Assembly: GCF_000017505.1 (NCBI RefSeq)
Contig: NC_009675.1
Coordinates: 3,109,001-3,173,000 of the forward strand
DNA from: Anaeromyxobacter sp. Fw109-5
GTDB lineage: Bacteria; Myxococcota; Myxococcia; Myxococcales; Anaeromyxobacteraceae
DNA length: 64,000 nt
Reading direction: 5' to 3'
In this document: one piece after another, positions 15,141 to 26,892 of the stretch
Layout of the letters: each line of letters opens with the position of its first letter
How positions within the stretch are numbered: the first letter of the stretch is position 1
Made by a program: the position numbers and the translations under genes
The notes under the pieces: model-generated
What the model saw: the letters and a program-made list of their open reading frames with translations, nothing else
What the model was told of the DNA's origin: nothing
The model's database searches: none

Positions 15141-18100
15141 TCACTCCTCCCCCGAGTCCTCGCGCGCGCCGGCCACGGCGGACGCCCTGCCCTGGGGCGC
15201 GGAGGCCGGCGCCGGACGTGCCGGGACCGGCGGCGGCGCCGCCGGCGCGGTCGCCGGGGCACGGGCCGGCCCTCGGATCCTGGCGAGCTCGAGCTCCAGC
15301 GCCTTCTCGCGGCGCGCGCGCTCCTGCAGCGCGGCGTGGAGCCGCTGCAGCTCCTGCGCCCGCAGCTCGTCGCGGCGGGTGAGCTCGTCGCGGAAGCGTG
15401 CCTGGGCCTCCTCGACCGCGCGGATGCCACGGCCCTCGACCTCGCGGCGCTCCGCCTGGAGCTGCTCGACGCGGCGGGCCGTCTCGACCGCCCGCGCCTC
15501 CGCGGCCTGCGCGCGCGCCGTGAGCTCCCTCTCCGCCCGCGCCCGCGCCTGCCCGGCCTGCGCGAGCGCTGCCTCCAGCTCCTGGATGCGCGCGCGCGCC
15601 GCCTGCGCCACGGCCGCGTCGCGCGCGCCCTGATCGGCGCGAGCGGCGAGCTCCGCCGCGCGCGTCTCGGCCTGGCCGATCCGCGCCTGCAGCTCGGTCT
15701 CGATCCGCTGGCGGTCACGATGGGAGGACGCGAGCGCCTGCTCCACGTCGCGCACCCGCGCCTCGGCGCGGTCCGCGCGGGTCGCCGCGGCGGCGAGCTG
15801 GGCCTGGATCTCGTCGACGCGCTTGCGCGCCTCGAGCCGCGCCGCCTCGGACGCCTCCCGGGCGGAGAGCAGCTGCGCGATCCGGTCCTCCGCGTCCGCT
15901 GCTCGCCGGCGCGCCTCGTCGGCGCGCGCCGCCGCGGTCTCGGCAGCCGCGCGCTCGCGACGCTCGGCCGCGTGCAGCGCCTCCGTGCGCGCGGCGATCT
16001 CCTTCTGCAGCGCGTCCTCGCGGCGCGCGCGCTCCGCGGCGAGCTCCTCGAACCGCTCGTGGAGGGCCTCGGCGGCCTCGGTCTTCTTCGAGAGCTCCGC
16101 GAGCAGCTCCGCCTCGCGCCGGCGGTGCTCGTCCTCGAGGGCCGCCGCGTGCGCCCGCGCGCGCGCCTCGCCGTCGCCCCGCGCGGTGATCTCGGCGGTG
16201 AGCTCCGCCTCGAGCCGGACGCGCTCGGACTCCGCGGCGTCCCCGGCCGCGACGGCACGACGCAGCTCCTCCCGGAGGGCCGCCTCGTCGGCGTCGCGCG
16301 CCTCCAGCTCCGTCGCCAGCGCGTCGCGCGCGCCGCGGAGCTGCGCCCCGTCTTCCTCCGCCCCCGCCAGGCGCGCCTCGAGCTCTCCCGCCGCCTCCCT
16401 GGCGGCGTCGCGCTCCCGCGCGAGCGTCTCCGCCTGCGCGGCCCCCTCCGCCCGCGCGGCCTCGAGCGCCCCCTCGAGCCGCTCCCTGTCGGCGCGCTCG
16501 GCCTCGAGGAGCGCCGACTGCGCCTCGAGCCTCCCGGTCAGCTCCGCCTGCCTCCGCTCGCCCTCGCGGGAGAGCGCGTCGAGCGCCTCGCGCGCGCGGC
16601 GCAGCTCCTCGGAGAGCGCTTCAGCCCGGTGGAGCCGCTCCTCGGCCTTCGCCTCGAGCTCGGCCGCCCACGCCTCCGCCCTGCGGGCGGCCTCGGCGCG
16701 CGCCGCGAGCTCCACGGTGAGCTCACCCTCTCGCCGCTCCAGCCTCCGGCGCACGTCGGCGAGCGCCTCCTCCGCCTGGCCCAGCTCAGCCGTGCGCGAC
16801 GCGACCGCGGCGCGCGCCTCCGCGAGCTCGGCCTCGAGGGCGCCACCCCGCGCTCGCTCCGCGGCGAGGAGCCCCTCGAGCTCGCCCTGCCGGACCGCGG
16901 CGGCGGCCTCGACGTCGCCGAGGTGCGCCGTCAGCCGGGCGATCTCGTCCCGCGCCGCGGCGACCGTGTCGGCGAGCCCCTGCGCGCCGCGCTCCGCGTC
17001 CTCACGCGCGACGGCCGCGGCGTCCCGCTCGGCCGCGACCCGCGCCGCCTCGGCGAGCGCCGCCTCGGCCGCGGCGCGCGCCTCGTCTCGCTCCGCCCCG
17101 CGCACGTCGAGCTGGGCCTCGCGCTCGGCGAGCGCGGTCCGCAGCGCGTCGCGCTCGCGCGCCGCGCCGTCGGCCGCGCCGCGCTGGCGCTCGTGCTCCT
17201 CTCGCGCCCGCGACAGCTCCCCGCGCAGCCCCTCCCGCTCCGCTGCCCAGGCCGTCTCCGCTTCCTCGAGCCGGCCGCGGGCGGCGTCCAGCTCGCTCGC
17301 GAGGGCCGCCGCGCCCGCGCGCGCCTCGGCGAGCGCCCGCTCCGCCCCCGCCAGCGTCCGCTCCGCCTCCTCCTGCCGCACCGCCGCGGCCGCCGCCGCC
17401 TCGCGGGCCGCCCGCTCCGCCGACGCGCGCTCCTCGTCCAGCGCGGCCCGCGCGGCCTCGAGCTCGGCCAGGAGCTCCGCCTCTCGCTCCGCCGACGCGC
17501 GCCCGAGCGCGTCGAGCGACCCCTCGACCTCGCCGAGCTTCTGGAGCTGCTCCTGCGTCTCGCGCTCGAGCGCCTCCTCCCGGACCCGCGCGGCGTCCCG
17601 GAACTGCCGGTACTCGTCGTCGAGCAGCCGCAGCCGCGCGTCGCCCTCGCGCGCGGTCGCCTCGCGCTCGGCCACCGCGCGCTCGAGCTCGGCGATCGCC
17701 TCGCGCGCCGCCTGGGCGTCGGTCTCCCTCGCGCGCTCACCGTCGGCGAGCGACGCCTCGAGCTCGCGGATCCTCCCCTCCAGCTCGGCGCGCCGGTTCT
17801 CCGCCTCCGCCCGGGCCTGGTCGCGCTCCGCCTCCGCGGCGCGGACGCGGCCCTCCCCCTCGACGCGCGCGGCCTCGCGCGAGCGGGCCTCCGCGTCGCG
17901 CTCGGTGCGGGTCCGCTCGAGCTCGGCCTCGAGGGCCCGGCGGCGCGCGGCCGCCTCGTCGAGCTGCTGGGCCCCCTCGCGGGCGGCGGCCTCGGCCGCC
18001 TCGCGCGCCTCCTCCAGCGCCTCCTCCGCCGCGGTGAGCTCCTCGGTGCGGCGGGAGATCTCGTCCTGCAGCTCGCGCTCGCGCGCCTCGTAGCGGTGCT

Positions 18101-19253
18101 CCTCGGCGCGCGCCTCGCGCCCGAGCTCCTCGACCTCCTCGCGGGCGCGGGCGAGCGCGGCGCCGCGGGACTGGAGCTCCTCGTCCCGCGCGCGCAGCTC
18201 GCGCTCGAGCTCGTGGATGCGCCGCTCGTTCGCGGCGACCACCTCGATGAGCTCCTTCTCCTGGCCGAACTTCTCGAGCAGGAGCCCGTCGATCGACGCG
18301 CCGTACTCGCGCTCCTTCTGCACGAACAGCTCGCGCGCCTCCGCCAGCCGTCGCGTGAGGTCCTCGACCTCGTCCTTCAGCGCCTGGTGCTCGACGTCCC
18401 GCTCGTGCAGGCGCTCGTCGAAGACGGACAGCTCGCGCTCGCGCGCCTCCCACACCTCGGCGAGCCGCGCGATCTGCGCCTCGCGCCAGCGCAGGTCCTC
18501 GCGGAGGAGCTGCGCGCGCCCCTCGGGCGTCTCCTTCAGCTCCCGGCGCTGCGGCGGACGGCGGTCGGCCTCCGCCGCGAGCGAGCGGCGCTCGGCGATC
18601 GACTGGAAGACACGGTCGACGAAGAGGCGGTCGTCCTCGGTGACGCTGGCCTTGCGGGCCCGGCGCGGCACCGGCGGCGGGGCGGCGCCCTCGGCGGGCG
18701 CGGGCCCGTCCGGCGAGGCCGGCTCCGGCTCCGCCGCGGAGAGCGGCTCCGGGGCGGCGCTCGGCCCGGCAGGTGCCTCCTCCTCCCGGGGCGGGACCTC
18801 GTCCTGCGCGCCGGCGAGCTCGACCCCGTCCTCGCCCTCCTCGATGACCGCGTCGTCCGCGCTCTCGATGGGCTCGGCGGCCGCCAGGATGCGCGCCGAC
18901 AGCTTGCGCAGGGCGTCCGTGTCGAGCGGCATCGCGAGGTAGCCGTTCGCGGCCCACGGCGTGCGCGCGTGCTGCGCGAGGGCCTCGGGGGGCGTGTCCG
19001 ACGAGTACAGCAGGATGGGCAAGCCGGCGGTCGCGCGGTCGTTGCGAAGGCGCGCGCAGAAGGAGAACCCGGACAGGTCGGGCAGCTCCGCGCGCGAGAC
19101 CACGAGCTCGGGACGCCGCGTGGCGATCTCGCGCTCGGCCTCGCCCGCGCTCGCGGCGATCCGCGTGGCGCAGCCGTCCTCGCGGTACAGCGCGGAGAGC
19201 GACAGGGCGAAGGCGTTGTCCGGCTCGACGATGAGGACGCGCTTCTGTTCCAT
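15141..19253 (-). CDS. AglZ/FrzS-like protein: pseudo-receiver plus giant coiled coil
   Basis: 1370 residues. The N-terminal 120 residues have a response-regulator receiver fold (V-L-I-V-E-P-D at 6-12; P-I-L-L-Y-S-S-D), but the phosphorylation Asp is replaced by Arg54 (V-V-S-R-A-E-L-P-D) and the conserved Lys by Met (L-A-M-P-L). An acidic/proline linker (about 130-200) follows. From about 240 to 1330 the sequence is almost unbroken Glu/Ala/Arg heptads without a Pro break, and it closes with an Ala/Pro tail. A phospho-dead receiver plus roughly 1,000 residues of coiled coil is the architecture of Myxococcus xanthus AglZ (gliding-motility complex) and, in shorter form, FrzS. Length fits AglZ better. 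Orthology is inferred from architecture, since coiled coils align with almost anything. Confidence 0.75.
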   Translation of the reverse strand: MEQKRVLIVEPDNAFALSLSALYREDGCATRIAASAGEAEREIATRRPELVVSRAELPDLSGFSFCARLRNDRATAGLPILLYSSDTPPEALAQHARTPWAANGYLAMPLDTDALRKLSARILAAAEPIESADDAVIEEGEDGVELAGAQDEVPPREEEAPAGPSAAPEPLSAAEPEPASPDGPAPAEGAAPPPVPRRARKASVTEDDRLFVDRVFQSIAERRSLAAEADRRPPQRRELKETPEGRAQLLREDLRWREAQIARLAEVWEARERELSVFDERLHERDVEHQALKDEVEDLTRRLAEARELFVQKEREYGASIDGLLLEKFGQEKELIEVVAANERRIHELERELRARDEELQSRGAALARAREEVEELGREARAEEHRYEARERELQDEISRRTEELTAAEEALEEAREAAEAAAREGAQQLDEAAARRRALEAELERTRTERDAEARSREAARVEGEGRVRAAEAERDQARAEAENRRAELEGRIRELEASLADGERARETDAQAAREAIAELERAVAEREATAREGDARLRLLDDEYRQFRDAARVREEALERETQEQLQKLGEVEGSLDALGRASAEREAELLAELEAARAALDEERASAERAAREAAAAAAVRQEEAERTLAGAERALAEARAGAAALASELDAARGRLEEAETAWAAEREGLRGELSRAREEHERQRGAADGAARERDALRTALAEREAQLDVRGAERDEARAAAEAALAEAARVAAERDAAAVAREDAERGAQGLADTVAAARDEIARLTAHLGDVEAAAAVRQGELEGLLAAERARGGALEAELAEARAAVASRTAELGQAEEALADVRRRLERREGELTVELAARAEAARRAEAWAAELEAKAEERLHRAEALSEELRRAREALDALSREGERRQAELTGRLEAQSALLEAERADRERLEGALEAARAEGAAQAETLARERDAAREAAGELEARLAGAEEDGAQLRGARDALATELEARDADEAALREELRRAVAAGDAAESERVRLEAELTAEITARGDGEARARAHAAALEDEHRRREAELLAELSKKTEAAEALHERFEELAAERARREDALQKEIAARTEALHAAERRERAAAETAAARADEARRRAADAEDRIAQLLSAREASEAARLEARKRVDEIQAQLAAAATRADRAEARVRDVEQALASSHRDRQRIETELQARIGQAETRAAELAARADQGARDAAVAQAARARIQELEAALAQAGQARARAERELTARAQAAEARAVETARRVEQLQAERREVEGRGIRAVEEAQARFRDELTRRDELRAQELQRLHAALQERARREKALELELARIRGPARAPATAPAAPPPVPARPAPASAPQGRASAVAGAREDSGEE

Positions 19254-19491
19254 TTGGTTTGGGCGGTTCGCGAGAGGACTCCCGCGCGGCCACCGAGCAT
19301 AGCCCCGGTGTCGTCCGCCAATCTAGCCATCGCTCACCGCGGCGCCGGCCGAGCGTGGGCCTCGCGCGTCACGGGCGGGCGACCACGAGGGGCGTCCGGC
19401 GGCGGGTACCCGTGCGCGGATTGCGCGCGGGGCGCGATGGACCGAAGGTGTCGTGGCGCTCCGGCGCCGCGCGCCCGGAGCGGGACGACCC

Positions 19492-20049
19492 ATGACCACA
19501 TCGGCGCTCCTGGTCGCGCTCGCGCTCACCGCCTCGCCCGGGGCTGCCGATCACGCCCGAGGCGCCCCGCGGGAGAACCTGCTGCGCGGGCCGGCGCGGG
19601 TGGTGCTCCGCTTCCTCGACGCGGTACGGCTCGCCGGTCCGCGGGGGCCGCTGCGGGCGGGCGTCGCGATCCCGGCCCGCGCCGATCACTACGCCGCCGC
19701 GACGCGCCTCGCTGCGCCGCGGACCCGGGAGGAGCTCGAGCGCATGGAGGCGGCCGGCGAGGCGCATCCCCTGGCCTTCTGGCGCGACGCCGCGCGGGCG
19801 CGCGTGCTCGACTCGTTCCAGCTGCTCGCGGTGCGGCGCGCGCCGCGCGGGACGGTGGTGGTCACGGTCGAGGAGCACCACCTCGACCCCGCGGCCGACG
19901 GGAGGCGCCTGCAGCGGACCGTCAGCGAGTACCTCGTCGCGCCCGTGGCCGGCGAGTGGCGGATCGTGGACCGGCGCGTGGGGTCCGCGTTCGACGCGCA
20001 GGCGATCGCCGGCTACGACGGTTACTGGGACGAGCGGCCGGATCGCTGA
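19492..20049 (+). CDS. Small exported protein of unknown function
   Basis: 185 residues from the ATG at 19492, which begins a signal peptide (M-T-T-S-A-L-L-V-A-L-A-L-T-A-S-P-G-A-A); an upstream ATG at 19453 would put charged residues before it. The mature part is a single small domain that ends with E-Y-L-V-A-P-V-A-G-E-W-R-I-V-D-R-R-V-G, the look of a nuclear-transport-factor-2 or lumazine-binding-like fold, but I cannot assign it. Codon use matches the neighbours. It is followed 42 bp later by a metallophosphoesterase and is divergent from the AglZ-like gene. Confidence 0.6.
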   Translation: MTTSALLVALALTASPGAADHARGAPRENLLRGPARVVLRFLDAVRLAGPRGPLRAGVAIPARADHYAAATRLAAPRTREELERMEAAGEAHPLAFWRDAARARVLDSFQLLAVRRAPRGTVVVTVEEHHLDPAADGRRLQRTVSEYLVAPVAGEWRIVDRRVGSAFDAQAIAGYDGYWDERPDR

Positions 20050-20850: not shown

Positions 20851-21771
20851 TCAGCCGAGCTGCGCCGCGGCCAGCAGCTCACCACTGCGCTCGCGCGCCC
20901 TGGCGAGGTCCGACTCGTACTTGAGGACGAGGTTCAGGGTGTCGTCGAGCAGCGCGGGATCGAGCTCCGTCGCGTTCAGCACGGCGAGCGCCCGAATCCA
21001 GTCGAGCGTCTCGGAGATGGACGGCGCCTTCTTGAGGTCCAGGGCGCGGAGCTTGGCGACCGCCGCGACGACCGCGCGCGAGAGCGCCTCCGCCGCGTCA
21101 GGCACCTTCGCCCTCACGATCGCGAGCTCGCGCTCCTTCGAGGGGAAGTCGATGTGCAGGTGGAGGCAGCGCCGCTTGAGCGCGTCGGAGAGATCGCGCG
21201 CGGCGTTGGAGGTCAGCACCACGCGCGGCACCTGGCGCGCCCGCACGGTGCCGAGCTCCGGCACCGTCACCGTCCACTCCGAGAGCACCTCCAGCAGGAA
21301 CGCCTCGAGCTCGGGATCCGCCTTGTCGATCTCGTCCACCAGCAGGAGCGCGGGCTCCGCGCTCGTGATGGCGCGCAGCACCGGGCGCGGCACGAGGAAG
21401 CGCTCGCTGAAGAAGACGTTCCCCTCCCCCGCGATCCGGTCCGCGGCCTCGGCGAGCGACCCGGCGCCGGACACCGCCTCGCCGATCCGCTCGCGCAGGA
21501 GCTGGGTGAAGAGGAGCTGCTTCGCGTACTCCCACTCGTACAGCGCCTTCGACTCGTCGAGCCCCTCGTAGCACTGGAGCCGGACGAGCGCGCGCCCGGA
21601 GGCCTGCGCGAAGGCGCGCGCCAGCTCGGTCTTCCCCACGCCCGCAGGACCCTCGACCAGGATGGGCTTCTCCAGCCGATCCGCGAGGAACACGGCGGTC
21701 GCGATGTCCCGGGACGGGAGGTAGCCGGCGCGGGCGAGCTTCTCGGAGACGTCCTCGATGTCGACGAACAT
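20851..21771 (-). CDS. MoxR-type AAA+ ATPase
   Basis: 306 residues from ATG 21771 (GAGGG a few bases upstream). Walker A G-P-A-G-V-G-K-T is at about 42-49 and Walker B L-L-L-V-D-E-I-D at about 135-142. The L-T-S-N-A-A-R-D-L-S-D-A-L-K-R-R-C sequence carries sensor 1 and the arginine finger. MoxR ATPases act as chaperones that insert metals or mature partner proteins, usually next to a VWA-domain gene. No VWA gene lies beside it here; the gene on its 3' side is the convergent metallophosphoesterase. Its partner must therefore be elsewhere or it works alone. Confidence 0.88.
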   Translation of the reverse strand: MFVDIEDVSEKLARAGYLPSRDIATAVFLADRLEKPILVEGPAGVGKTELARAFAQASGRALVRLQCYEGLDESKALYEWEYAKQLLFTQLLRERIGEAVSGAGSLAEAADRIAGEGNVFFSERFLVPRPVLRAITSAEPALLLVDEIDKADPELEAFLLEVLSEWTVTVPELGTVRARQVPRVVLTSNAARDLSDALKRRCLHLHIDFPSKERELAIVRAKVPDAAEALSRAVVAAVAKLRALDLKKAPSISETLDWIRALAVLNATELDPALLDDTLNLVLKYESDLARARERSGELLAAAQLG

Positions 21772-22031
21772 GAGCCCTCGACGCGCCGCACCGGCGCTCC
21801 TGCGCCTCATTCGTAAGAGCCGGCGCCCGCGCGGTCGAGCCTCCACCGGTCGCATTCGCCCGGGTTTGCCGTACCCTGGCGTTGTCCCGCACCGTCGCTT
21901 TTACAGCGACGTCCCGGCGTGGGGCTCCGTAACATGCCGCAACCACTACACCTACGCGCTGCATCGGCTCGGCACGGGGATTGTAGTCTGGGATCCACGA
22001 GTCCCGCCGGAGGCCGGCCAAGGACCCTGCC
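21772..22031. other. Divergent intergenic region (moxR and short plus-strand transcript)
   Basis: No gene seen. The region should hold promoters for both sides. A perfect 7-bp hairpin (CGTCGCT, TTTAC, AGCGACG) lies at about 21894-21912. On the plus strand CGGCACGGGGATTGTA (21970-21985) matches the sigma-54 -24/-12 consensus (TGGCACR-N4-TTGCW) except for the first T and the C of the -12 GC. This is suggestive but not convincing. Confidence 0.4.
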
Positions 22032-22166
22032 ATGAAGAATCTCCAGCCAAAGACTCGAAGCCGCAGGGCCCGCCTCCCGTATCACGTCCAAGTCGAAGCG
22101 AGGTCGGTCGCTCGACTCCTCCCCCCGCCGTTCGTCTCCTGTGAGGCGTCTGGCGGAACGTCCTAG
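22032..22166 (+). CDS. Possible 44-residue basic small protein (or structured RNA)
   Basis: ATG at 22032 with AGGA about eight bases upstream; 44 codons to a TAG. The product begins M-K-N-L-Q-P-K-T-R-S-R-R-A-R-L and is strongly basic at the N-terminus, with L-L-P-P-P-F-V-S-C near the end. About a quarter of its codons end in A or T, clearly more than in surrounding genes, so it is either atypical or not translated. Transcription on this strand is supported by the terminator just downstream at 22188-22233. I do not recognise the family. If the reading frame is not used, the same interval is a candidate small RNA. Confidence 0.4.
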   Translation: MKNLQPKTRSRRARLPYHVQVEARSVARLLPPPFVSCEASGGTS

Positions 22167-22187
22167 TCGGCGCGCCCAGGGGCGCCC

Positions 22188-22233
22188 AAAAGCTGGAGAG
22201 GCCGCGGGGGAGACCCGGCGGCCTCTCGCTTTT
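22188..22233. terminator. Bidirectional intrinsic terminator
   Basis: GAGAGGCCGC (22196-22205) pairs perfectly with GCGGCCTCTC (22218-22227). The stem is extended by AAAAGC on the left and GCTTTT on the right, so both strands have a U-run. It is the only classic rho-independent terminator I found in the window and separates the short plus-strand transcript from the convergent debranching-enzyme gene. Confidence 0.85.
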
Positions 22234-22250
22234 CGAGCCCGGCTCCGACG

Positions 22251-24506
22251 TCACACCTCGATCCGCACGCGAAGCGGTCCGCCCTGCACGTCGATCACCT
22301 CGGCGTACGCCGCCCTCGGCCCTCGCAGGAAGCGCAGCGTCGCTCGCGCGGCGCCCACGCGCACCCCCTCGAGCGTGAGCTCGTCCAGCCAGGGCGGCAG
22401 CCACGGAAACCGCACGTGCAGCGTGTGGGCGTGCGCGTCGGGGAAGAGCCCGAGGACGGCGCGGACGAGCAGCATCCAGGCCGCGGACGACCAGGCCTGC
22501 GGCGAGCAGGCCACCGGATAGTGCACCGGGAAGCGGCCGCCGTCGCGCCCGAGCCCGCAGAAGAGCTCGGGGAACCGGAGGAGCCTGAAGTGCTGCGCCG
22601 CCTGCCACAGCCCGGTGAGCACCTCGCCCGCGCGCTCGACCTCGCCGTACGCGCTCATGCCCATCGCGCACAGCGCGTTGTCGTGCGGCCAGACGGTCCC
22701 GTTGTGGTAGCTCAGCGGGTTGTAGGCCGGCTGGCCCGCCGCGAGCGTCCGGATCCCCCACCCGCTCCACATGCGCTCGCCGAGCAGCGAATCGATCACG
22801 CGGTGCGCGCGGTCCGGGGAGGCGGCTCCGGAGAACAGCAGGTGCCCCGGGTTCGACGTCACGGCGTCCACCTGCCGGCCCTCGCGATCGATCGCGATGG
22901 CGTAGGTGCCCTTCTGCTCCATCCAGAAGTGGGCCTCGACGGCGTCGGCGAGGGTCCGCGCCGACGCCTGCAGCCGGTCCGCCTCCGCGTCGCGACCGAG
23001 GCGCTTGTAGAGCCCCGCCATGCGGCGGCGCGCGTCCACCGCGTAGCCCTGCACCTCCACGAGCGCGATGGGCGGCTCCGCGGGACGGCCGTCCGCGAAG
23101 GGCACGCCGTCGTGGCTGTCCTTCCAGCCCTGGTTGCGGAGCCCCTTCGGCGTGCGGCGCGCGTAGTGGACGAGGCCGCCGCGCGCGGGGTCGACGGCGC
23201 GGTCGAGCCACCCCAGGGCGCGCTCGGCGGCCGGGAGGAGCTCCTCCACGGTCGCGCGATCGGCCGTCCAGCGGTCGTACTCGTCGAGCAGCACGAGGAA
23301 CAGCGGCGTCGCGTCGGCGGAGCCGTAGTACGGCGTGTGCGGCACCTCGCCCGCCGCGGCCATCTCGCCGAACCTCATCTCGTGGGGGATCTTCCCCGGC
23401 TCCTCGTCGCGCTCCGGATCCTCCACCGCGCCCTGCAGCCGCGCGAGGAAGCGGAGCGCGTCCCGCGCCACCTCCGGGACCGCCACCATCGCCTCGAACC
23501 CGGTGATGAGCGCGTCCCGCCCGAAGGGGCAGGTGTACCAGGGGATGCCGGCCGAGATCACGGGCTCGCCGAAGTGGTAGACGCGCAGCGCCTTCAGGTC
23601 CGCGACGGCCTGGCCGAGCGCGAGGTCGAAGAGGTCGTTCGACGAGCGGAAGCCGGTGGCGCCTCGCGCCCACGCGTCGTAGGCCTCGCGCGTCGCGCGG
23701 GAGCGCGCGTCGAAGGACGCGGAGGGACCGCGCGGGATCTCGCGGTCCTCGTCGCGCCCCCGGCGCCCGCCCGCCGGGCCGCGCTCGATCCCCGCCGCGA
23801 CCACGAACGACAGCTCGACCTTGCCGGCGGGCTCGAGGTGGAGATCGACGCGCGCACCCCGCCCGCTCATGCGCGTGAGCCGCGCCGCACCGTCCGCGCG
23901 CAGCCCCTCCACGCGGATCTCCGTCGCGTACCCGCGCCCATCCCGCCCGTCGTAGCGGAGGATCGCCCGGTCCCGCTCGACGCGCGGCAGCTCGTAGGTG
24001 CCGCGCGCGGCACGCTGCGCGCCCCGGATCTCGAAGACGTCGGCGAAGTCCGCCGCCCAGGCCATCTCGAGCCAGAACGCCATCGGGCGATCGAGGAAGT
24101 TCGTCAGGACGATCCGCTCGACGAACACGTCGTCGATGATCTGGTCTCGCCGCAGGTGGACGTAGTTCACCGGCTCGCACCCGAGCAGGTCGCCCTCGTG
24201 CAGGCTCGTGATGGTGAAGTCGATCTGCGCCACGTAGTCGGGCGACACCTGCGAGGACAGGCACAGCGGCGGCCCTCCTCGCACGGCGAGCTTCCACGAG
24301 GACAGGTGACGCGTGTCGGTGAGGAACAGCCCCAGATCGCGCGCGCCCGCCGGCGACACGTCGCCGAGGCGGTTCGCCACCAGGAAGAGGTTGCCGCGCT
24401 TCAGGACGAGCTTGTCGACGCCGGTCGCCTCCGGCTGCGCCGAGGGGTCCGAGTAGCCGAGCAGGTCCTCCGGGCGCGCGCGGGTCACTGCGCGAGCGTC
24501 GTCCAT
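22251..24506 (-). CDS. Amylo-alpha-1,6-glucosidase / glycogen-debranching-type enzyme
   Basis: 751 residues. The N-terminal beta-rich domain (about 30-230; L-K-R-G-N-L-F-L-V-A-N and F-L-T-D-T-R-H-L-S-S-W) is the bacterial GDE_N-type domain. The C-terminal (alpha/alpha)6 toroid (about 280-740) contains G-I-P-W-Y-T-C-P-F-G-R-D-A-L-I-T and S-Y-H-N-G-T-V-W-P-H-D-N-A, typical of GDE_C/GH15-like hydrolases. Expected to cleave alpha-1,6 branch links of glycogen or related glucans in the cytoplasm; no signal peptide. Start ATG 24506 overlaps the end of the upstream glycosyltransferase by 22 bp, so the two form an operon that probably makes or turns over a storage or protective glucan. Confidence 0.85.
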   Translation of the reverse strand: MDDARAVTRARPEDLLGYSDPSAQPEATGVDKLVLKRGNLFLVANRLGDVSPAGARDLGLFLTDTRHLSSWKLAVRGGPPLCLSSQVSPDYVAQIDFTITSLHEGDLLGCEPVNYVHLRRDQIIDDVFVERIVLTNFLDRPMAFWLEMAWAADFADVFEIRGAQRAARGTYELPRVERDRAILRYDGRDGRGYATEIRVEGLRADGAARLTRMSGRGARVDLHLEPAGKVELSFVVAAGIERGPAGGRRGRDEDREIPRGPSASFDARSRATREAYDAWARGATGFRSSNDLFDLALGQAVADLKALRVYHFGEPVISAGIPWYTCPFGRDALITGFEAMVAVPEVARDALRFLARLQGAVEDPERDEEPGKIPHEMRFGEMAAAGEVPHTPYYGSADATPLFLVLLDEYDRWTADRATVEELLPAAERALGWLDRAVDPARGGLVHYARRTPKGLRNQGWKDSHDGVPFADGRPAEPPIALVEVQGYAVDARRRMAGLYKRLGRDAEADRLQASARTLADAVEAHFWMEQKGTYAIAIDREGRQVDAVTSNPGHLLFSGAASPDRAHRVIDSLLGERMWSGWGIRTLAAGQPAYNPLSYHNGTVWPHDNALCAMGMSAYGEVERAGEVLTGLWQAAQHFRLLRFPELFCGLGRDGGRFPVHYPVACSPQAWSSAAWMLLVRAVLGLFPDAHAHTLHVRFPWLPPWLDELTLEGVRVGAARATLRFLRGPRAAYAEVIDVQGGPLRVRIEV

Positions 24507-25564
24507 CCGTCCTCCGCCCCGGCAGCGGCCGCCCCGGCGCGCCCGCGCGCGCGGGCGGCGATCGCGGCCCGGTACACCGCGAGATATTCGGCCGCCATCC
24601 GATCCGCACCGAAGCGGCGCCGGGCGCGCGCCTGGATCGCCGCCCGGTCGAGCCTGGCGGCGCGCCGGAAGGCTGCGGCCATGTCGTGCACGCCGCCGAC
24701 GAGGAACCCCGTCCGGCCGTCCTCGACGATCTCGGGAGCCGCGCCGAGCGGGTACGCGATGACCGGGCAGCCCGCCAGCGCGGCCTCGATCATGACGAGC
24801 CCGAACGGCTCCTCCCAGCGCAACGGGACGAGCAGCGCCCGCGAGCGGGCGAAGAGCCGCCGCTTGGCGGCGAGGTCCGCCTCGTCGATCCAGCGCACGT
24901 GGCGGCGACGCAGGGCCGGCCCGAGGACCTCCTCCCTCCAGGCGCTGGGCGCCGCGTCGTCGCCGTGCACCCGCCCGGCGACGGTGATCGGCACCCCCGC
25001 GAGCCCCGCCGCCTCGATCGCGAGCTCCGGGGCCTTGCACCACGCCAGCCGCCCGAGGAAGAACGCCGCGTCGCCGCCGGGGCCGGCGAGCGGGTACAGC
25101 TCGGGCTCCAGGCCGTGGTGGACGACGTCGTGCGGCGGCGGGTCGGCGAGCTCCGCCTGCCGCGCGGAGATGGCCACGAGGCGCACATCGTCGATCCGCG
25201 CGTAGAACCGCGCGAGCGCCGGCTCGTGCGCGTGGTGAAGCGTGTAGACGAGCGGCGGGCCCAGCTCGTCGGCGAAGGCGAGCATGGCCGGCACGTTCGC
25301 GTGGACGATGTCGAAGCCGCCCGCTGCGATCTCCTGCGCCGCGAAGCGGCAGTGCAGGATCTCGGCGTAGGGGTCGGGCGGCCACACGGCCCGCTCGTAC
25401 AGCGCGCGCACGCCGCGGACGCTCGAGTCGCCGGTGGCGAACACCGTCACGTCGTGGCCCGCGCGAGCGAGCGCCCGGGAGAGCGCGTGGACGACGAGCT
25501 CCGTCCCGCCGTAGGCCGGGGGAGGAACGGGGACGAAAGGGGTCGAGACGATCGCGATTCGCAC
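24485..25564 (-). CDS. GT4-type glycosyltransferase
   Basis: 359 residues, GT-B fold. The N-terminus (R-I-A-I-V-S-T-P-F-V-P-V-P-P) and G-G-T-E-L-V-V-H-A-L form the acceptor half. In the donor half, E-P-F-G-L-V-M-I-E-A is the E-x7-E motif of retaining GT4 enzymes, followed by G-C-P-V-I-A-Y-P-L-G-A-A-P-E-I-V and D-G-R-T-G-F-L-V. I chose the GTG at 25564 because it gives the usual family N-terminus; another GTG lies one codon upstream, and neither has a good ribosome site. The sugar donor is unknown. Coupling to a debranching enzyme suggests a role in alpha-glucan metabolism. Confidence 0.85.
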   Translation of the reverse strand: MRIAIVSTPFVPVPPPAYGGTELVVHALSRALARAGHDVTVFATGDSSVRGVRALYERAVWPPDPYAEILHCRFAAQEIAAGGFDIVHANVPAMLAFADELGPPLVYTLHHAHEPALARFYARIDDVRLVAISARQAELADPPPHDVVHHGLEPELYPLAGPGGDAAFFLGRLAWCKAPELAIEAAGLAGVPITVAGRVHGDDAAPSAWREEVLGPALRRRHVRWIDEADLAAKRRLFARSRALLVPLRWEEPFGLVMIEAALAGCPVIAYPLGAAPEIVEDGRTGFLVGGVHDMAAAFRRAARLDRAAIQARARRRFGADRMAAEYLAVYRAAIAARARGRAGAAAAGAEDGWTTLAQ

Positions 25565-25742
25565 CACCTCACGGTAGGGGCTGCCCCGCGACCGGGCCAC
25601 GCACGCGAGCGCGCGCGGCTCCTGGGCGCGCCCGCGCGCCCGGCGGCTCGGCCCCCGGGCGCACGCGGCGACCGCCGTCCGGGGTCGGCGTAGGCGTCCG
25701 GACGACATCCACCACCGCGCGGAGCTTTCCTCGCGCGCCGGT

Positions 25743-25779: not shown

Positions 25780-26892
25780 ATGGAAGGCCAGGGCCCGCTC
25801 AGCGAGGAGATGTTCCATTCGTTCCTGCAGCTCGCGGTGAAGCGGCAGGCGAGCGACGTGCACTTCGAGGTCGGCTACCCTCCGACGTACCGGGTGTTCG
25901 GCGAGCTGCTCGCCGCCAAGTACCCGGCGCTCACCCACGCGGACACGGAGGCCATCGCGAACTTCGTCCTGCAGGCGCCCGGCTCCGGCTTCGCGCCGCT
26001 CGACTTCCGCGAGGTGGATCGCAGCTACTCGCTGCCCGGGGTCTCGCGCTTCCGCGCCTCCATCTTCAAGCAGCGGGGCAGCTGGGGCGCGGTGATGCGC
26101 ACCATCCCCTTCCAGATCCCAGACTTCGAGACGCTGAACCTGCCGCCGGTGGTCCGCACGATCGCGGAGGCGCGGCGGGGCCTCGTGTGCGTCACCGGCG
26201 CGACCGGGAACGGGAAGTCCACCACCATCGCCGCGCTCATCAACTACATCATCCAGCAGGAGCGTCTGCACGTCGTCGCGGTGGAGGATCCGATCGAGTT
26301 CATCTTCCCGGGCGGGAAGGGGCTCGTCATCCAGCGTGAGGTGGGGTCGGACACGGCGAGCTACACCGACGCGCTGCGCGCGGCGCTGCGGCAGGACCCG
26401 GACATCATCATGGTGGGCGAGCTGCGCGACCGCGAGGCGGCCGACATCTGCCTCAAGGCCGCCGAGACGGGGCACCTCGTCATCACCTCGCTCCACACGC
26501 CCGACGTGCCCCGCGCCATCGGCCGCCTCGTCGGGCTGTTCCCCGCCGAGGAGCAGGACACGGTCCGCGCCCGGCTGGCGGACAACCTCCAGGCCGTCGT
26601 CGCGCTGCGGCTCCTCATGCGCGCCGACGCGGCCGGGCTCATGCCCGCGGTGGAGGCGCTCCTCGCGACGAGCACCGTGCGCGAGCTGATCCGCGACGGC
26701 TCGAAGGTCAACGAGCTCAAGACCTACATGGAGACGGCCGGCTCCGATCTGGGGATGAACAGCTTCGACCAGTACCTGTACCGGCTGCACGAGTCGAAGC
26801 ACATCTCCCTCGACACAGCGCTCGCCAACGCCACGAACCGCGCCGACCTCGAGCGCCGCATCCTGATGGAGACGGGGGGCCGCACCGCGTGA
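25780..26892 (+). CDS. PilT/PilU-like type IV pilus motor ATPase
   Basis: 370 residues; secretion-ATPase superfamily that drives pilus retraction in the cytoplasm. Walker A is G-A-T-G-N-G-K-S-T (140-148), with Asn where PilT usually has Ser. The Asp box is V-A-V-E-D-P-I-E-F. Walker B is D-I-I-M-V-G-E-L-R-D (208-217), and the His box lies in T-G-H-L-V-I-T-S-L-H-T. The A-I-R-N-L-I-R-E motif of PilT is changed to T-V-R-E-L-I-R-D, so this may be a PilU-like paralogue rather than the main retraction motor. The next gene begins inside its stop codon (GTGA), coupling it to a PilZ-like protein. Confidence 0.88.
   Translation: MEGQGPLSEEMFHSFLQLAVKRQASDVHFEVGYPPTYRVFGELLAAKYPALTHADTEAIANFVLQAPGSGFAPLDFREVDRSYSLPGVSRFRASIFKQRGSWGAVMRTIPFQIPDFETLNLPPVVRTIAEARRGLVCVTGATGNGKSTTIAALINYIIQQERLHVVAVEDPIEFIFPGGKGLVIQREVGSDTASYTDALRAALRQDPDIIMVGELRDREAADICLKAAETGHLVITSLHTPDVPRAIGRLVGLFPAEEQDTVRARLADNLQAVVALRLLMRADAAGLMPAVEALLATSTVRELIRDGSKVNELKTYMETAGSDLGMNSFDQYLYRLHESKHISLDTALANATNRADLERRILMETGGRTA

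Follow-up and report, generated by a model that had tools for sequence, protein, structure and literature searches.

A conserved pseudoknotted RNA, probably regulatory, encoded next to moxR in Anaeromyxobacter and related bacteria

The intergenic interval upstream of a moxR gene of Anaeromyxobacter sp. Fw109-5, located in a 64,000-nucleotide stretch of DNA that was analyzed as a whole (the window), encodes, almost certainly, a genuine regulatory RNA that had not been catalogued before and that is restricted to the lineage of Anaeromyxobacter-type soil bacteria. Comparison of its homologues supports the existence of this conserved RNA, its strand, its noncoding nature, and its independence of the gene downstream; for the fold, the comparative evidence is good. 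In the preferred reading, to which we assign a probability of about 0.7, the product is an autonomous, noncoding, structured small RNA (sRNA) of ∼235 nt that would be activated by sigma-54 and an enhancer-binding protein and would act in trans, independently of Hfq, through C-rich single-stranded segments. The features of the locus are listed in Table 1.

Table 1. Features of the moxR-side RNA locus (positions in the window)
Feature	Position	Strand	Basis
moxR-type AAA+ ATPase gene	20851..21771	-	Pfam AAA_5 1.5e-13, AAA_3 9e-7; adjacent in 16/16 loci
Dyad GGGT-N7-ACCC, about -136; candidate enhancer (upstream activator) site	21862..21876	+	10/16 loci
Sigma-54-type -24/-12 promoter element CGGCACG-N4-TTGTA	21970..21985	+	GGCAC and G(-13) invariant in 16/16
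Conserved noncoding RNA, predicted start 21996-21998	21998..22233	+	Alignment of 16 homologues; covariance-model match
Pseudoknot strand A, CCGGCC	22014..22019	+	Pairs with 22102-22107
Stem P1, 5' strand	22022..22029	+	4/7 pairs changed on both sides
Stem P1, 3' strand	22064..22070	+	Same pairing test as 5' strand
Conserved stretch rich in C (CCUCCC); candidate for target binding	22070..22080	+	CUCC invariant in 16/16
Hairpin H3, with pseudoknot strand B as its 6-nt loop (GGUCGG, 22102-22107)	22092..22116	+	Both sides changed in 6/9 pairs
C-rich linker UCCUCCCC, candidate target-binding segment	22117..22124	+	At least 7 nt unpaired in 15/16 homologues
Variable hairpin H4	22125..22156	+	Directly after linker in 13/16 folds (not L005-L007)
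Variable hairpin H5	22169..22186	+	Fold of window RNA
Intrinsic terminator, also usable here by the convergent debranching-enzyme mRNA	22188..22233	+	Hairpin in 16/16, GCTTTT tail in 10/16

The interval from 21772 to 22250 lies between two minus-strand genes, moxR and the gene for the glycogen debranching enzyme, the stop of which is at 22251. No plus-strand gene enters the interval, in agreement with the preliminary description of the region, which saw no annotated plus-strand gene upstream of the terminator; the transcript start that it placed near 21990 is likewise supported by conservation in 16 genomes. Directly upstream of the RNA and divergent from it, moxR is its constant neighbor in all 16 homologous loci, and the gene found 3' of the terminator differs from locus to locus: it is a convergent debranching enzyme gene in 7 loci, pilT on the same strand in another 7 (L008 to L014), and a convergent gene of the MFS type in 2. 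This variation indicates that the RNA is not the leader of any one gene and has no single target in cis. That the RNA acts in cis on the gene downstream as a leader or attenuator, such as a riboswitch-like element for pilT, is therefore unlikely, even though pilT follows shortly past the terminator in those 7 loci. The convergent genes exclude a pilT leader for at least 9 of the 16 loci, pilT of the window starts at 25780, i.e., 3.5 kb away and behind the minus-strand GDE-GT4 module (debranching enzyme and glycosyltransferase), and in genus g6, which lacks the RNA, pilT and moxR are neighbors. Assignment to a riboswitch or cis attenuator class was rejected for want of a constant same-strand downstream gene.

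The GDE-GT4 pair itself (window positions 22251 to 25708; also L074 and L075) separates the RNA from pilT in genera g1 and g4; in genera g2 and g5, pilT comes directly after the RNA, so that the pair appears as a two-gene module gained or lost at a fixed locus. Elsewhere in the window, the minus strand of positions 15141 to 19253 contains an ORF of 1370 codons whose product combines an N terminus resembling a response-regulator receiver with a very long E/A/R-rich segment, probably a coiled coil. No tRNA or tmRNA genes were found within the window, and a mobile or phage origin was rejected, given that no match was obtained in plasmids or phages.

The distribution of the RNA was examined using window positions 21850 to 22250 as a blastn query against 60 genomes, including the window's own. 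All 60 gave some match at E values of up to 1; homologues adjacent to moxR were found in only 16. These long matches come from 7 genomes within the genus, counting that of the window, and 9 other genomes of the family, that is, from 16 of the 24 Anaeromyxobacteraceae genomes, and most of them span part or all of query positions 121 to 384 (21970 to 22233 in the window), which reach from promoter element to terminator. With a covariance model built on 128 positions of the 5' domain, the 16 homologues were recovered at E values of 3e-20 or better among the same 24 genomes; the match at 21998 to 22125, to a sequence that is itself a row of the model, scored 134.5 bits (E value of 3.6e-29). The other 8 family genomes (G004, G008, G010, G013, G015, G018, G021, and G023) yielded nothing or only matches with E values of 0.07 to 0.09. 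Scans of 145 genomes of the order and 195 genomes of the phylum, with stricter filters under which weak matches are lost, returned strong matches in the same 16 genomes only. The strict motif CGAGTCCYRCCGGAGRCYGNYCRNGR, searched in 84,980 species with a single genome per species, had 11 matches, all in Anaeromyxobacteraceae. Genome G049 gave a weak model match (E value of 0.0367). The weak matches L037 to L044 (E values of 0.004 to 0.09) overlap long ORFs, do not appear to be homologous, and were not counted. The region preceding moxR was also inspected in 14 genomes that lack the RNA (6 from the family and 8 from the order), and nothing similar to the RNA was seen there.

Rfam 15 had no match in the window at the gathering score and only two below it at E values of up to 5. 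One of these, to ctRNA_pGA1 (RF00236), covers just the terminator hairpin on the minus strand, with 20.3 bits (the gathering score is 45) and an E value of 0.11, and was dismissed as a chance match. Open-access literature searches found no small RNA described in Anaeromyxobacter.

Some members of the family appear to have lost the RNA. Genome G004, which belongs to the same genus, has no moxR at an E value of 1e-40; its debranching-enzyme locus (L070) lacks the metallophosphatase gene, moxR, and the RNA, and a gene similar to the one at window positions 19453 to 20049 adjoins the enzyme gene. There, metallophosphatase, moxR, and the RNA were apparently lost as a block. Genera g3 and g6 retain moxR without the RNA, and the MoxR tree puts both among the RNA-bearing genera. 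With the deep fork of this tree left open, loss is the likely explanation in these two genera.

The preliminary description had left a choice between a new small protein and a small RNA. The 44-codon ORF at 22032 to 22166 is indeed unusual in its codon endings, with A or T in 27% of third positions versus 3.6% in moxR; this difference from a neighboring gene speaks against its being translated. An ORF of equal length is present in homologues L001 to L004, and ORFs for 35 to 37 amino acids starting from ATG or TTG are found in L008 and L011 to L014. However, 7 of the 16 homologues (L005, L006, L007, L009, L010, L015, and L016) lack the frame or have it broken or shifted. Among L001 to L004, differences are distributed nearly evenly over the three codon positions (0.163, 0.182, and 0.231), and the synonymous fraction of 0.276 (42 of 152 substitutions) compares with a neutral expectation of 0.28. 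The AGGA at 22021 to 22024, previously suggested as the ribosome-binding site, overlaps the first strand of stem P1, and this base-paired position accounts for its conservation without any role in ribosome binding. A basic 44-residue protein is very improbable and was rejected on the broken frame and the neutral codon pattern.

Aligned homologues share a near-invariant 5' segment, CGAGUCCyrCCGGAGrC (from which L010 deviates), conserved C-rich stretches, and the terminator, with little conserved beyond these. The structure comparison between related genomes that had been proposed earlier was carried out, and the fold, pseudoknot included, covaries across the 16 homologues, in support of the small-RNA alternative. 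Stems P1, P1b, and H3 together with the pseudoknot are paired in 91.0% of 388 cells, 12 of their 25 pairs are changed on both sides, and the whole-fold covariation score of 0.277 (0.151 in shuffled alignments) was reached in none of 500 shuffles. When the pairing partners were slid by 1 to 3 columns, 28.1 to 45.1% of the cells were paired, a control that is biased toward the proposed fold since the structure was taken from the same sequences. The pseudoknot alone is paired in 97.9% of its cells, with a covariation score of 0.286 versus 0.128 and, again, 0 of 500 shuffles reaching it; position 20:110 is seen as G-C, U-A, A-U, and G-U, and there is one mismatch each in L010 and L014. The covariation term of RNAalifold for the full alignment was small (-1.2); this tool, which is unable to draw pseudoknots, preferred the pseudoknot strands to most of H3. 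The homologues diverge in the sequence of their 3' part yet fold alike there, and the unpaired state of the C-rich linker was read from the minimum-energy fold of this 3' domain in the 16 homologues. In the window genome, the 5' segment GGAGGCCGGCC (22009 to 22019) can pair instead with GGCCCGCCUCC (22067 to 22077), at 91%, in competition with the pseudoknot.

The cells of the fold contain 21 G.U and 10 A.C combinations, and this excess of G.U favors an RNA made from the plus strand. This bears on whether the conserved block could instead belong to moxR, as a long 5' leader or a promoter region for the minus strand, which would agree with the constancy of moxR as a neighbor and with the absence of both moxR and the RNA from G004. 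We consider it very unlikely: the T-tract and the -24/-12 element also point to the plus strand, the distance from the moxR start to the promoter element varies from 167 to 237, and genera g3 and g6 have moxR without the RNA.

The partial sigma-54-like element noted previously (CGGCACGGGGATTGTA) is confirmed in its position. The pattern GGCACRNNNNTNGNA occurs once in the window versus 0.71 occurrences expected by chance, so that the pattern alone is not significant. Nevertheless, the element stands above chance because its GGCAC core is invariant in all 16 aligned loci, as is the G at -13, with standard spacing, in strongly diverged surroundings; this count was taken from the alignment, given that the motif-scanning scripts looked for GGCAC themselves. 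At -12, 14 loci have A or T and 2 have the sigma-54 consensus C; in Bradyrhizobium, according to one report, two sigma-54 consensus sequences differ solely at -12 (PMC3162934). The rpoN gene for sigma-54 is encoded in 23 of the 24 family genomes, the exception being G020, which is 79% complete. There is moderate evidence that this element would be used by sigma-54.

Farther upstream, a dyad of the form GGGT-N6-9-ACCC is present in 10 of the 16 loci, compared with a mean of 0.39 loci and a maximum of 3 in 300 rounds of shuffling the same regions. In those 10 loci it has a spacer of 7 or 8 bases and starts at -135 or -136; the pattern is missing in L005 to L008, L011, and L012. Its distance to the -24 element is 108 to 109 bp in 10 of 10 loci, whereas that to the moxR start ranges from 56 to 125, which ties the dyad to the RNA and not to moxR. 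Such a dyad may serve as an enhancer. In four loci of order-level relatives from family f4 (L053, L055, L056, and L058), a different unit is divergent from moxR, with a sigma-54-like GGGCAC-N5-GTGCA followed by a conserved membrane-like protein of 70 to 73 amino acids and with a conserved GGCAAAAATGCC farther upstream.

The terminator, a perfect 10-bp stem formed by GAGAGGCCGC (22196 to 22205) and GCGGCCTCTC (22218 to 22227), is located where it was first described, and its use by plus-strand transcripts is backed by conservation in 16 genomes. The flanking AAAAGC (22188 to 22193) and GCTTTT (22228 to 22233) make it bidirectional in the window genome, as had been claimed, but not as a general trait: the A-tract is found only in L001 to L003, and the plus-strand T-tract is weak or interrupted in 6 of the 16 loci. 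A simple terminator scan found none, missing this one because its run of four T's falls below the five-T rule of the scan.

According to the preferred reading, RNA polymerase with sigma-54 would start the RNA near 21996 to 21998 once an enhancer-binding protein, acting from the dyad, triggers initiation, and the transcript would stop at the terminator. Within its first 125 nt, P1 and H3 would form and be locked by a pseudoknot, in which CCGnCC close to the 5' terminus pairs with the H3 loop GGnCGG; two variable hairpins and then the terminator would make up the 3' portion. Without Hfq, the conserved unpaired C-rich stretches (CCUCCC and CUCCUCCC) would base pair with G-rich ribosome-binding sites on the mRNAs targeted, and a set of genes would thereby be switched in response to an environmental signal that the enhancer-binding protein reads. 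Hfq models found no match in any of the 24 family genomes, and neither did those of CsrA; positive controls were detected for both.

Trans action with C-rich targeting is most likely: the linker is unpaired in 15 of the 16 homologues and resembles the C-rich segments of sX13 (see below), which makes antisense pairing with G-rich ribosome-binding sites the best guess. Complements of the 5' 17-mer (with 2 mismatches) and of an 11-mer version of the linker, searched in six Anaeromyxobacter genomes, showed no excess over the reversed patterns and no enrichment at translation starts. Of 44 listed loci with linker complements, 30 were read, and 4 had an ATG, GTG, or TTG within 12 bases that opens more than 60 codons; 3 of these are the same gene. 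These searches covered near-perfect complements, and, as none stood out, the antisense step is one that we infer.

The same empty target searches would suit a structured RNA that binds a protein or ligand in place of mRNAs, for example, by sequestering a regulator or through a tie to the MoxR ATPase. The large invariant 5' segment, the pseudoknot, and the constant moxR neighbor are consistent with such an RNA; we hold this to be possible but clearly less probable than trans-acting antisense. CsrA, the best-known client of sponge RNAs, is absent from all 24 genomes, for which reason a CsrA sponge was rejected. Slightly more doubtful still is a new class of pseudoknotted regulatory RNA acting through its folded core, which might sense a ligand or interact with a protein, perhaps one of the MoxR AAA+ pathway, and be made on demand with sigma-54 in hosts without recognizable Hfq or CsrA.

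These data add to the Anaeromyxobacter lineage and its relatives an RNA family with a fold, a promoter architecture, and a distribution. The covarying pseudoknot supplies exact positions for mutational tests, and, as the host has no recognizable Hfq or CsrA, the RNA offers a testable case of regulation without the usual chaperones.

Among known systems, a report on Vibrio fischeri describes a quorum regulatory RNA (Qrr) that is sigma-54-dependent and switched on by enhancer-binding proteins (PMC10162802). On that description, the likeness to the moxR-side RNA lies in the activation of an sRNA by enhancer-binding proteins via sigma-54, which is predicted for the latter. Qrr RNAs are Hfq-dependent. 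The sRNA sX13 of Xanthomonas is described as Hfq-independent; through unpaired segments rich in C, it represses mRNAs that carry G-rich motifs close to their translation starts (PMC3771888). It is a 115-nt RNA of an unrelated bacterium with three C-rich apical loops; in the moxR-side RNA, the C-rich segments are linkers, and their targeting role is putative.

The closest parallel in myxobacteria is Pxr of Myxococcus xanthus, which published reports present as an intergenic, noncoding, lineage-restricted sRNA with a predicted sigma-54 promoter and an upstream enhancer region (PMC5568312, PMC5684412, PMC11928866), in a host stated to have no hfq homologue (PMC5684412). Pxr and the moxR-side RNA have these traits in common, with a predicted promoter and a candidate enhancer in the latter. 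Pxr is described there as a 108-nt RNA with three stem-loops, encoded between nla19 and an NADH dehydrogenase gene, whereas the moxR-side RNA is ∼235 nt long, contains a pseudoknot, and lies between moxR and the debranching enzyme, pilT, or MFS gene; these descriptions set the two apart, and identity with Pxr was rejected on position, length, and structure.
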